Shown piece after piece: positions 18,137-21,976 of a stretch of 23,565 nt of DNA. A program made the position numbers and the translations under genes. The stretch is from a virus: the IMG/VR virus record IMGVR_UViG_3300020389_000003, positions 1 to 23,565 of that record, one strand, 5' to 3'. The notes under the pieces were generated by a model. The model saw only the letters and a program-made list of their open reading frames with translations. It made no database searches and was not told the DNA's origin. Within the stretch, counting starts at the first letter, position 1. Each line of letters begins with the position of its first letter.

Positions 18137-18368
18137 TATGGGCCGGCAGGGCAGGCCCATAAAGATGTACGAATGCCAGGCGTTGACTGCCTGGGCGGAT
18201 CAGGCACCTGAAGACGAACTGCGGCAATACCAACAGACAAGGGGATTTTCTGATGCCTATTTCGATACATGGAAAAGATTACACCACCGTGGCAGAACGG
18301 GTGTTGAAGATTCACAAGGACAAGCCGAATCAAGCGAGCATAACGACGAAGGTGCTGCAACTGAATGA
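18012..18368 (+). CDS. Uncharacterised acidic protein with large overlaps
   Basis: 118 aa, GGGGA before the ATG. No recognised family; the middle (VTCPLSYAGNELLTLGWQV) is followed by a mixed helical segment and an acidic, Ser-rich end. It overlaps the upstream frame by 125 bases and the annealing-protein gene by 116 bases. One of the three overlapping frames may be shorter than drawn. Its good ribosome site favours it being expressed. Confidence 0.5.
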   Translation: MKAENETRSQQNDSGVTCPLSYAGNELLTLGWQVAMDPTCVDMGRQGRPIKMYECQALTAWADQAPEDELRQYQQTRGFSDAYFDTWKRLHHRGRTGVEDSQGQAESSEHNDEGAATE

Positions 18369-18771
18369 TAAGTTTGTGTTGATGCAAGCACGGCTGACAA
18401 TCCGCGGTGACGAGCGGCAGACGTTTACCGGGCACGCTATCGAATTCCACGACACTAAAAACCAGCGGGCCGTCAATTTTGCCAGTGCTGTTGAGAACTG
18501 CGAAACGTCGGCCGTTGGCAGGGCGTTGGCGGCTGCCGGCTACTGCGGGACAGAATTTGCCAGTGCTAACGAAATGCAAAACGTGGAGGGCAAGACGAAC
18601 CGACGGGCAGCCCAGGCAAAGGCACCCGCAGTTGGAAAGCCTGCTGGCAAACCTGCTGGCAAACCTGCTGGCAAACCTGCTGGCAAGCCTGCACGGGCAC
18701 CAGCTGGCAAGAAAGCCCTGCGGTCACTAACGAAAGAAGAAGAAGCAGTTTTAAACGGTCTACCATTTTAG
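18253..18771 (+). CDS. Candidate single-strand annealing protein with GKPA-repeat linker
   Basis: 172 aa, AGGGGA ribosome site. The core (PISIHGKDYTTVAERVLKIH ... ENCETSAVGRALAAAGYCG) belongs to a widespread phage family beside SSB genes. A beta-beta-beta-alpha order and the helix with ETSAVGRALAAAGY resemble Rad52/Erf/Sak annealing proteins, but this is inference. A 12-bp repeat encodes GKPAGKPAGKPAGKPA, a flexible basic linker. The acidic end LTKEEEAVLNGLPF closes in Pro-Phe like an SSB tip. Its nearest downstream neighbour is SSB. Confidence 0.75.
   Translation: MPISIHGKDYTTVAERVLKIHKDKPNQASITTKVLQLNDKFVLMQARLTIRGDERQTFTGHAIEFHDTKNQRAVNFASAVENCETSAVGRALAAAGYCGTEFASANEMQNVEGKTNRRAAQAKAPAVGKPAGKPAGKPAGKPAGKPARAPAGKKALRSLTKEEEAVLNGLPF
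18640..18687 (+). repeat. Four tandem 12-bp repeats (CCTGCTGGCAAA)
   Basis: Three identical units at 18640-18675 and a fourth ending AAG at 18676-18687, each read as PAGK. Degenerate relatives flank it. The unit keeps the reading frame, so copy-number change only lengthens or shortens the linker of the annealing-protein candidate. Confidence 0.9.
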
Positions 18772-19176: not shown

Positions 19177-19671
19177 ATGAAATACCAGATAGACCAATGC
19201 GAACTGGCGGCCTGCAAAGCTTGGGCGGTGCAGCTGATTGAATCGAGCCCGAACCGTGAACCGTATTGGACGGTGGCAAACTTCACAGCCGGCAAAATGG
19301 CGGAAGTTGCCGTGTCAAGCCGGCTGGGCGTTTGCCCGTCTTTCAGGTATGGCCCTGATGGCGGTATTGACATCACGTGGCACGGCCTGCGGCTGGACAT
19401 TAAAAGCACGTACAACGCCACCCATAATCTGTGTCTTGCTGAAAGCGTGCGCCCAGGTGGCGCAGACCTGTTCATTGCCTGTCACGTGGACCGCGGCACA
19501 AACGTGGTATCTGTGTGGGGCTGGCAGTTGGCAACCGTGGTATTTGCTGACGCGGAGCTGAAGCCCGGCAAGCGGCCCTATCGTATCTACCAGCGTTCGC
19601 TGCTGGTGCCTGGCGTGCCGCTAATCACAGAAGTAAGCAGACGAATAGAACTGGAAAAGGTGCCGTTCTAA
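19177..19671 (+). CDS. PD-(D/E)XK-fold nuclease, uncharacterised
   Basis: 164 aa from the ATG at 19177; a TTG at 19171 that overlaps the SSB stop is an alternative. The pattern Glu43 (GKMAEVAVSSRLG), Asp61/Asp65 (DGGIDITWHG), then Asp74-Ile-Lys76 (LRLDIKST) matches the PD-(D/E)XK nuclease core, as in restriction enzymes and recombination nucleases. It ends LEKVPF, the third Pro-Phe end in a row. Its place after SSB favours a replication or recombination role. The stop overlaps the next start (TAATG). Confidence 0.7.
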   Translation: MKYQIDQCELAACKAWAVQLIESSPNREPYWTVANFTAGKMAEVAVSSRLGVCPSFRYGPDGGIDITWHGLRLDIKSTYNATHNLCLAESVRPGGADLFIACHVDRGTNVVSVWGWQLATVVFADAELKPGKRPYRIYQRSLLVPGVPLITEVSRRIELEKVPF

Positions 19672-20552
19672 TGGATGGATACATAAAGCTCCACCGCAAG
19701 ATACTAGATAGCGCGGTATTCCAGTCACCTGCGTTATTAAAGGTCTGGACCTGGTGCCTGTTGCGGGCCAATTGGGCACCGCGGCAGCTAATGACTGGGC
19801 AAGTTCTAGAACCTGGGCAACTTATCTTGTCCTACAACCGGGCAGCCGATGCTCTGGATATGTCGAAAAGTACAGTTTTCAGACATATCAAAGCACTAGA
19901 GCAACTGGGCAACATTACGCTAAACGTGGAACGCAAATGGACCACCTTAACCCTTTGCCAGTGGCGGACTTATCAAGACGACGAAACGAAAGGTGGAACG
20001 ATAGCCGAACGCAAATGGAACGATAGCAGAACGCAAATGGAACGCCAGCCGAACGCAAATGGAACGATAGGCGAAACAGAAGAAGAAGGAAAGAAAGTAA
20101 GAAGGAAAGAAAGAAAGACAAAAGGGGGTGTTCTTTCATTTGATGAAATGAAGCTAGTGTTCAACGGCCGGCTGGATACTGACGTTGCACGGGCTGCCAT
20201 GCGTCAATGGATTGACTACCAGACAGCACGCGGTACGCCACCGCCCACCAGGGACGGGCCGCAGCTGATACTGGAACGCTATGCCGTCAGCGGCAGCAAT
20301 GCCCTGGCCCGCGATATCGAACATTGCATTGCCCAGAACTGGGCCGGCCTGTATCCACGCAAAGACACTGGTGGCGACGATCCACCGAAACCGCTACGCG
20401 ATGACCCAGCAGAAGCCTGGCAGAACATTCTGTTCCGGGTCCATAAGTGTGCCGGCCATGACATCAGCGACGGCCGTTGCCAATGCTGCAAGGTGCCGGC
20501 TGATTACATCGAACGGGCAGAACGCGAACTAGACCGAAACGGAGTGCTGTAG
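19671..20552 (+). CDS. Replication initiator, O/DnaD-like with internal iterons
   Basis: 293 aa. The N-terminus (GYIKLHRKILDSAVFQSPAL then LKVWTWCLLRAN) is the familiar phage replication-protein winged-helix opening, followed by a second helix-turn-helix (LDMSKSTVFRHIKALEQLG). Residues about 108-150 are a low-complexity Lys/Glu-rich linker encoded by DNA repeats (19985-20066) and a purine tract. The C-terminal half (VLSFDEMKLVFNGRLDTDVAR onward) has CQCC near the end. Like lambda O, it probably binds the iterons within its own gene and recruits the host helicase. No helicase or loader gene is present. Confidence 0.8.
   Translation: MDGYIKLHRKILDSAVFQSPALLKVWTWCLLRANWAPRQLMTGQVLEPGQLILSYNRAADALDMSKSTVFRHIKALEQLGNITLNVERKWTTLTLCQWRTYQDDETKGGTIAERKWNDSRTQMERQPNANGTIGETEEEGKKVRRKERKTKGGVLSFDEMKLVFNGRLDTDVARAAMRQWIDYQTARGTPPPTRDGPQLILERYAVSGSNALARDIEHCIAQNWAGLYPRKDTGGDDPPKPLRDDPAEAWQNILFRVHKCAGHDISDGRCQCCKVPADYIERAERELDRNGVL
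19929..20128. other. Candidate replication origin
   Basis: This region contains the iterons and, just after, a 51-base tract (20078-20128) that is all purine on the + strand except T at 20098 and C at 20119. The layout, iterons in the middle of the initiator gene next to an easily melted A-rich tract, parallels lambda ori in the O gene. Function is inferred. Confidence 0.65.
19985..20066 (+). repeat. 22-bp direct repeats (iterons) in the replication gene
   Basis: The 16-base core GAACGCAAATGGAACG occurs perfectly at 20007, 20029 and 20051, exactly 22 bases apart, with ATAGC/ATAGG spacers. A degenerate copy precedes them in register (TGGAACGATAGCC from 19994), and a 13-base match lies at 19929-19941. 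Because 22 is not divisible by three, the copies are read as ERKWND, RTQMER and PNANGT. Confidence 0.92.
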
Positions 20553-20810
20553 ATGACAATGGTAGACAAATACGAAGACATTATCGGACAGCTGAAAGCA
20601 GCAGAAACAATAGAACAGGGAATCGATGCCTGCTATGAGTTTTTTACGACGCTGCCAGATAGTACAGGTGACGAATTTATGGCGTTTATGTGCGGGGTTA
20701 CGTGGCGCAATGGGTTAGAGGAATCGCCGTCAGTGTTTGAAATGGTGGATTCGTTTATCAATATTCACCTGGCCGGAAAGCTGTACGGACAGATGCACAA
20801 AGGCGCATGA
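20553..20810 (+). CDS. Uncharacterised small protein
   Basis: 85 aa (MTMVDKYEDIIGQLKAAETI start; ATG at 20559 is possible). Mostly helical and acidic, with no recognised motif. Its 3-prime part overlaps a methyltransferase remnant in another frame, so the last 20 or so residues (from FINIHLAGKLYG) may be acquired by a deletion fusion. Function unknown. Confidence 0.6.
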   Translation: MTMVDKYEDIIGQLKAAETIEQGIDACYEFFTTLPDSTGDEFMAFMCGVTWRNGLEESPSVFEMVDSFINIHLAGKLYGQMHKGA

Positions 20811-21264
20811 GTACGTTTTCCTGATGACCAAATCGTCCAGGTATTACTATGACGCTGACGCGGTAAGGGAAAAGGCAGAATACGGGCGCAGAAAATGGTC
20901 GAGCGTGGAAGGTAACTTAGCGGCAGCCACAACGGCAGGTGATAAACGTCTACACCACGGCGTTAGAGTGTCGGCCAGCGTGACAGGTGCAGATCCATCA
21001 GCCGGCAGAAACCGGCGCAGCGTCTGGACGATTGCAACGGCACCCTATCCAGGGGCACATTTTGCCACGTTTCCGCCGGCACTGGTACAGCCCTGCATAA
21101 AGGCGGGCTGCCCAGAAGGCGGTACCGTACTGGATCCGTTCATGGGTAGCGGCACGACTGGCGACGTTGCCCTACGGCACAGCTGCAAGTTTATCGGCAT
21201 TGAACTGTCAGAAGAATACATCCAGCTGGCAATGAAACGATTTGACCAAAAGGTACTGTTTTAG
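20737..21264 (+). pseudogene. N-terminally truncated DNA methyltransferase (beta-class type)
   Basis: The frame gives 175 aa, with homologous-looking sequence from about residue 13 (PESCTDRCTKAHEYVFLMTK, then SSRYYYDADAVRE). In complete enzymes this is the middle of the protein, usually MPES.TDRPTKxHEYxFLL. AdoMet-binding motif I is present (LDPFMGSGTTGDVA), as is the final FIGIELSEEYI. The catalytic DPPY/SPPY motif expected in the missing N-terminal half is absent, as is a good start site. Most likely an inactive remnant; a split enzyme using a partner is a remote alternative. Confidence 0.75.
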
Positions 21265-21277
21265 AAGGCGGCAAATT

Positions 21278-21493
21278 ATGAAAGTGCGACTAATTAAGCC
21301 GGGGCATCGTAACCGGGTACGGATCATCGGCAACGCATGTGAGAACCTGCTTCACCTGGAAGCAATGGCGGCCGGCATGGGAATGCAGCGTGTGGGATTC
21401 GTCAAATTCTGGCTGCACGTGGCATTCTGGTGGCGGAAGAAACAAGGCAAAGGGCCGGACCTGTTCGACCAGGGCGACCCGGAACTAAACTAA
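21278..21493 (+). CDS. Uncharacterised small basic protein
   Basis: 71 aa from the ATG at 21278 (AGAAGGCGGC upstream), rather than from 21242, which lies in the methyltransferase remnant. Basic N-terminus (MKVRLIKPGHRNRVRIIGNA), helical middle with several Met and Trp residues, acidic end. No family recognised. Its stop overlaps the next start (TAATG). Confidence 0.65.
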   Translation: MKVRLIKPGHRNRVRIIGNACENLLHLEAMAAGMGMQRVGFVKFWLHVAFWWRKKQGKGPDLFDQGDPELN

Positions 21494-21846
21494 TGACAAA
21501 CGGTAGACGCAAAGGCAAGGACGCTGAACTAGAAGTAGCCGACAGGCTGCGCCGGCTGCTGCAAACCAAAGCGGAACGGTCACAGCAGTACAGCGGCATG
21601 GGCAGCGGGCCAGGTGACGTTATCGTATACGACACCCACGATAAACCGATGGACCTGGTGGTCGAAGTCAAACGGCGGGAACGGTACAGCGTTAACCAGC
21701 TAATCGAGTGGTGCCATCGGGCCAGCAGCGATGCAGGGGATTACAACCCTGCCATTGTCGTGCATCGTGGCAGCCGGCAGCCCTGGCTGGTGACAATGCA
21801 GCTAGACGATATAGCCGCATTCATTGATGAAATGGGCCGGCTGTAG
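21493..21846 (+). CDS. Holliday-junction-resolvase-like PD-(D/E)XK nuclease
   Basis: 117 aa from the ATG at 21493. Pattern: GRRKGKDAELEVADRLRRLL (acidic residue in helix 1), then GPGDVIVYD (Asp42) and MDLVVEVKRRERY (Glu58-x-Lys60). This is the layout of archaeal Hjc-like and VRR-type nucleases, which cut branched DNA. It could resolve recombination intermediates before packaging. The end helix (MQLDDIAAFIDEMGRL) is typical. Start overlaps the preceding stop. Confidence 0.8.
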   Translation: MTNGRRKGKDAELEVADRLRRLLQTKAERSQQYSGMGSGPGDVIVYDTHDKPMDLVVEVKRRERYSVNQLIEWCHRASSDAGDYNPAIVVHRGSRQPWLVTMQLDDIAAFIDEMGRL

Positions 21847-21976
21847 CGGGAAAAAAAGGCAAACTAATTCCCGATTTACTATGCTTACATGTATACCTGA
21901 AGGGCGATTTATACTAATATGTGGGTGCGGGAAAACCCGCGCAGCGGAAACTAAAAAGGAAACAAAAGGTAAAACA
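21847..21976 (+). promoter_or_regulatory. AT-rich intergenic region, possible promoter
   Basis: 130 bases with AT-rich segments. A -10-like TATACT (21910-21915) follows CTTACA (21884-21889), but the 20-base spacing is poor. A small hairpin GCGGG-AAAA-CCCGC lies at 21927-21940, and CGGGAAAA also occurs at the left edge. It probably drives the following two genes. AAAAGG precedes the next ATG. Confidence 0.35.

Follow-up and report, generated by a model that had tools for sequence, protein, structure and literature searches.

The initiator gene and its neighbourhood

The window analysed here, a 23,565-nucleotide stretch of viral DNA (IMG/VR record IMGVR_UViG_3300020389_000003), contains a gene for a putative replication initiator in which a short repeat array is directly followed by a purine-rich tract (Table 1). 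The gene product matched the DnaD-like helicase loader family phrog_2514 with an E-value of 4.8e-26 over residues 1–166 and, weakly, the O-like families phrog_678 and phrog_345 (E ~1e-5). Its relatives identified by tblastn are annotated as replication initiation proteins or DnaD-like helicase loaders.

Table 1. Features of the initiator gene and the putative origin within the window.
Feature	Position	Strand	Basis
O-like / DnaD-like replication initiator gene, 293 aa	19671..20552	+	phrog_2514 and O-like families; tblastn relatives
N-terminal winged-helix DNA-binding domain, residues 1–105	19671..19985	+	AlphaFold2 helix-turn-helix (HTH) and wing; Pfam HTH matches just below cut-off
Recognition helix, residues 66–78	19866..19904	+	DSSP of the model
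Outlying 13-base iteron copy in the wing-coding part	19929..19941	+	exact match to GAACGCAAATGGA
Degenerate iteron unit AACGAAAGGTG	19985..19995	+	11-bp phase shared with the array
Iteron array, seven contiguous 11-bp units GAACGNNNNNN, predicted initiator-binding part of the origin	19996..20072	+	repeat scan; family-wide conservation
Purine/A-rich tract, predicted DNA-unwinding element	20073..20126	+	purine count; low stability; family-wide tract after arrays
C-terminal domain, residues 157–293, putatively recruiting helicase or loader	20139..20552	+	relatives; moderate model confidence

Structure prediction with AlphaFold2, built from 54 family members, gave pLDDT values above 90 for most of residues 11–100 and revealed a helix at residues 55–62, the recognition helix at 66–78, which includes Arg71 (codon at 19881–19883), and a wing at 82–95. 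The N-terminal winged helix of phrog_2514-type initiators is thus present both by profile and in a confident model. The 11-bp direct-repeat array right after it is present as well, and we propose such an array as a typical feature of this initiator type. The linker (residues 107–155) was modelled with low confidence and is predicted to be unfolded; the DNA coding for it consists of the iterons and the purine tract. Relatives of the C-terminal domain, found by a search via P0005, include gp72 of KLEP17-4 and O-like proteins. Sequence and fold searches of the PDB returned only generic winged-helix regulators, with a best sequence-profile match of E 0.0013 and no fold match with E below 0.001.

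An SSB gene is located upstream of the initiator gene with one ORF in between, and the next ORFs downstream encode an 85-aa protein, a methyltransferase and a PDDEXK/RusA-like nuclease. The methyltransferase gene (20737–21264, N6/N4-type DNA methyltransferase) overlaps the end of the 85-aa ORF. No helicase or loader gene was recognisable in the window, which is a fragment. The GC skew had no turning point within it, and a fragment mostly transcribed in one direction need not have one.

The 11-bp iteron array and the purine tract

The initial annotation, made from the sequence alone, had described a lambda-like origin with three perfect 16-base cores spaced by 22 bases. A sequence scan of the window located exact copies of the 16-nt sequence GAACGCAAATGGAACG at 20007, 20029 and 20051, at precisely this spacing and in three reading frames of the initiator gene; their translations agree with the peptides ERKWND, RTQMER and PNANGT read previously. 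The degenerate copy ahead of the cores and the 13-base match at 19929, an exact copy of GAACGCAAATGGA, were likewise found. The 22-base repeat is real as a lag-22 signal, but the true period is 11. Seven in-phase units starting with GAACG begin at 19996, 20007, 20018, 20029, 20040, 20051 and 20062, and the in-register reading of 19996–20072 is GAACGATAGCC / GAACGCAAATG / GAACGATAGCA / GAACGCAAATG / GAACGCCAGCC / GAACGCAAATG / GAACGATAGGC. Two unit types with the common core GAACG alternate, namely GAACGCAAATG and GAACG followed by an ATAGCC-like sequence, and because of this alternation the 11-bp array appears to have a period of 22 bp, the length of a dimer of units. Degenerate continuations precede (AACGAAAGGTG) and follow (GAAACAGAAGA) the array; no inverted repeat was found in the array region.

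Both periodicities exceeded all 2000 codon shuffles of the gene: the lag-22 score was 53/61 (shuffle mean 24.0, sd 2.1, maximum 34) and the lag-11 score 37 (mean 24.1, maximum 32). The only stronger repeat in the whole window is a 12-bp in-frame repeat coding for GKPA at about 18637. This tandem repeat (18625–18690) is situated near the end of ORF 18253–18771 (phrog_11717, next to the SSB gene) and constitutes a true in-frame protein repeat, which makes it a useful contrast to the 11-bp array. The outlying iteron copy is found 67 bp upstream of the first unit and one base off the 11-bp phase. Read in the frame that the unit at 20007 also uses, it specifies the residues ERKW in the DNA-binding domain's wing; it may serve as a binding site or be the sequence from which the repeat arose.

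The near-pure purine tract noted earlier behind the iterons was confirmed, with 51 purines among its 54 bases, and few 54-mers of the window are as rich in purines. By calculated duplex stability, only one region of the 23.5-kb window is weaker than the 50-mer at 20074, as would be predicted for an unwinding element. That region, the least stable 50-mer, is at 21873–21922, just after the PDDEXK/RusA-like gene (21430–21846).

Conservation of the array and co-variation with the initiator

Homologs were collected from phage records, viral contigs and bacterial genomes of several phyla; query P0001 alone yielded no relative in the viral contigs. Among 95 distinct, non-redundant genes in which the sequence following the winged helix was long enough, the best lag was 11 in 51 genes, 22 in 9 and 33 in 5. 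The lag of 11 was significant (p<0.01) in 72/95 homologs by codon shuffling and in 59/95 by protein-preserving synonymous recoding. In a rerun with fewer shuffles, 74 of the 95 homologs carried a lag-11 array, compared with 0 of 182 control ORF segments from the same loci. The arrays occupy the same place, after the winged helix, and share a unit consensus of roughly GAACAACAAAT with the local variants GACC.., GAGC.., CAAC.., TAAC.. and GAACG... Throughout the family the array is succeeded by some 45 bp rich in A and purines; the A content of this stretch was in the top 5% of the respective gene in 56 of 72 homologs. Judged from these comparisons, related phages from many bacterial phyla share this layout. 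One homolog (L012, MZ361826) is named Hydrogenophilus phage vB_LmoS_C996, a name in the style of Listeria phages, and the adjacent matches are vB_LmoS records; the host given for it may be incorrect.

About a fifth to a quarter of the homologs are devoid of a significant 11-bp array. They include five proteins of 195–203 aa from metagenomic viral contigs (L025, L066, L077, L086 and L094), which have the same winged helix and almost no linker and whose genes showed no significant array; either the origin must lie elsewhere in these phages or the proteins must do another job. A search of the viral contigs for the exact 17-mer CGAACGCAAATGGAACG gave seven single matches in unrelated genes, about the number expected by chance and none in an array.

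Whether DNA or peptide is conserved can be read from 17 Staphylococcus prophage alleles with arrays of equal length. Pairwise comparison counted 608 synonymous and 48 nonsynonymous differences in the N-terminal domain, and 0 synonymous and 526 nonsynonymous differences in the array, these counts being non-independent events from five array haplotypes. Almost all array differences are exchanges between the units CAACAACAAAT and GGACAACAAAT, while ACAACAAAT is fixed, and the 0 to 526 pattern arises because whole 11-bp unit types swap. In these alleles the direction is unambiguous: the DNA is kept while the peptide varies. The alleles and the homolog survey both agree with the earlier expectation that relatives keep the iterons while the linker peptide changes. 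Selection for a flexible polar or charged linker peptide, with the DNA repeat simply following, would be consistent with the polar (N/Q/T/K-rich) linkers of many homologs. The Staphylococcus counts and the synonymous-recoding test of the homologs both argue against this explanation, as does the reading of the unit in three frames, which leaves no peptide repeat in the window, and we regard it as extremely improbable.

The binding protein was approached by associating residues of the N-terminal domain with iteron bases over 66 homologs. The strongest associations involved positions 91, 55, 71, 98, 54 and 67, most of them at places where the winged helix is predicted to touch DNA. One of these, recognition-helix residue 71, varies in step with bases 1 and 11 of the iteron. 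In the first set, Arg71 occurred together with G at unit base 1 in 33 of 36 homologs, compared with 6 of 30 for other residues; this pair had been chosen from 107 x 11 pairs before the association was examined in 25 held-out homologs from the same wider family. There, G1 accompanied Arg71 in 6/6 and other residues in 4/19, and T at base 1 accompanied Lys71 in 5/6 and others in 3/19. The Arg71-G1 association persisted after thinning to below 45% identity (p 0.006), and thinning combined with average-product correction placed 71-base 11, 91-base 5 and 71-base 1 as the top three of 1177 pairs. None of 4000 trait simulations, run on a tree inferred with column 71 excluded, attained the observed association in either direction. 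The window protein has Arg71 and its unit starts with G, and arginine-guanine is a classic protein-DNA contact. Held-out and phylogeny-corrected alike, this co-variation is the strongest evidence that the protein binds the repeats of its own gene, and it makes binding of the 11-bp units by the initiator's own winged helix very probable.

Mantel correlations between N-domain and iteron distances were also significant; as their strength at the recognition helix did not exceed that in other parts, they are silent on the contact itself. A predicted pairing of Ser54-Tyr55 with G at unit base 5 was rejected: no new Ser54-Tyr55 homologs were found, and the converse is broken by L250 (Gly54-Arg55, GAACGCAGATT).

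Reading of the repeat in three frames had been taken earlier to mean conservation at the DNA level. The family data uphold this conclusion, but the argument is insufficient alone, because a recent tandem duplication also gives three frames. A neutral or recent minisatellite-like duplication in the disordered linker, serving no binding function, would explain why the copies are nearly identical; the linker is predicted to be disordered and is tolerant, and 66 bp (3 x 22) preserve the frame. We nevertheless consider it very improbable, as the same 11-bp period is found in the same place in homologs with less than 45% identity, neutral repeats in coding DNA would be expected to avoid periods not divisible by three, and the units co-vary with the recognition helix. 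Moreover, the alternating unit types differ outside GAACG, so the core has outlived duplication.

Known origins and the putative initiation mechanism

The closest precedent is gene 18 of phage L, where six 11-bp TGTCCAACGGA repeats were reported to be the likely origin in a study that includes region-swap genetics (PMC8022706). The homologous gp18 of the P22-like phage ST160 has the same TGTCCAACGGA unit, and an A-rich stretch and the repeats follow its N-terminal domain. These genes, like that of the window, encode an O-like initiator and contain 11-bp direct repeats; their N-terminal domain is tied to the window family via KLEP17-4, which makes their connection with the window protein an indirect one. 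They differ from the window in having two clusters of fewer units rather than one run of seven, another unit sequence and Ser instead of Arg at residue 71. HK022 O, a relative via KLEP17-4 gp72 (tblastn E 1e-5), is also encoded by a gene with 11-bp periodic units (TACCAGCARAT, p 0.003), although these form two short clusters, unit base 1 is T and residue 71 is Tyr.

The lambda origin comprises four inverted-repeat iterons of about 19 bp in gene O, which are bound by O dimers (PMC7466680); in NC_001416 they are located at 39034, 39054, 39078 and 39101, with spacings of 20, 24 and 23 bp or about two helical turns. As in the window, they lie between the parts encoding the N- and C-terminal domains of the initiator, and a purine-rich, AT-rich tract follows on the coding strand. 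The window therefore has the mid-gene repeats and the adjoining AT-rich/purine-rich tract of a lambda-type origin, whereas the inverted-repeat iterons of about 20 bp bound by an initiator dimer are replaced by 11-bp direct repeats. Homology of the N-terminal domain to that of lambda O was not detected (hhalign E 0.55). The initially proposed lambda-like origin in the replication gene accordingly holds for layout and mechanism, but neither for the iterons, which are 11 bp long, nor for the DNA-binding domain, which is not detectably akin to that of lambda O.

Because gp20 (ORF20) of Staphylococcus aureus phage 80alpha is not complemented in trans, the ori is assumed to lie within its gene (PMC5499656), and the phage record annotates a putative rep_origin there. 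We rejected gp20 as an experimentally supported relative because its N-terminal domain differs (no match) and its repeats measure 15/30 bp. In SPP1, direct repeats inside gene 38 (oriL) are bound by the initiator that this gene encodes, and an AT-rich unwinding element adjoins them (PMC6316719); unlike the window, SPP1 possesses an additional origin, oriR, as well as helicase genes of its own. Both systems are analogous cases in which the origin lies in the initiator gene or has been assigned to it.

Binding by itself could not separate an origin from an operator array through which the initiator would regulate transcription of its own operon, and the N-terminal domain does resemble ordinary HTH regulators. 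We judge a purely regulatory role to be quite improbable. The site is about 325 bp inside the gene and not at a promoter, it usually has an A-rich weak tract after it, the C-terminal domains are O-like, and the relatives and analogues described above have their ori at this place (PMC8022706, PMC5499656, PMC7466680). Operator and origin functions are, in any case, not mutually exclusive.

We consider it highly likely that a replication origin of the phage lies here, inside the gene for its own initiator. In silico analysis established the array and its phase, conservation at the DNA level, co-variation of helix and units and low stability of the tract; from these we infer the binding stoichiometry, tract opening, helicase loading and the start of initiation at this place. 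Initiator monomers would bind the seven (up to nine) head-to-tail units through the N-terminal winged helix, about one protomer per helical turn along one side of the duplex, and Arg71 in the recognition helix would recognise the G at the start of each unit. The alternating unit types leave room for a dimer per 22 bp in place of one protomer per 11 bp. The resulting nucleoprotein complex would form beside the weak purine/A-rich tract, strain and open it, and the C-terminal domain would then bring the replicative helicase or its loader.

Family members share a constant N-terminal domain but have C-terminal parts that match a wide range of O-like families, as expected if N-terminal domain and iterons act as a cassette. 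We lean slightly towards the broader view of a family that crosses phyla and in which most genes contain, in readable form, the code for binding by their own product. Each 11-bp unit would hold a single winged-helix protomer in a filament with one protomer per turn, and residue 71 would set base 1 or 11 (Arg with G1; Lys with T1, usually after G11). N-terminal domain and iterons would travel together, and the helicase-recruiting C-terminal domain would be exchanged.

An origin built into an initiator gene is of an already known kind; the family-wide 11-bp rule, for which no description covering the whole family was found in the open-access literature, and its association with the recognition helix are of more interest. 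The likely origin of an uncultured phage is hereby placed to the base, and the 11-bp repeats of phage L turn from an anecdote into a rule for a large initiator family. As protein and target reside in one gene, sequence data alone give access to hundreds of matched winged-helix/DNA pairs, with which recognition specificity and origin incompatibility can be tested directly.
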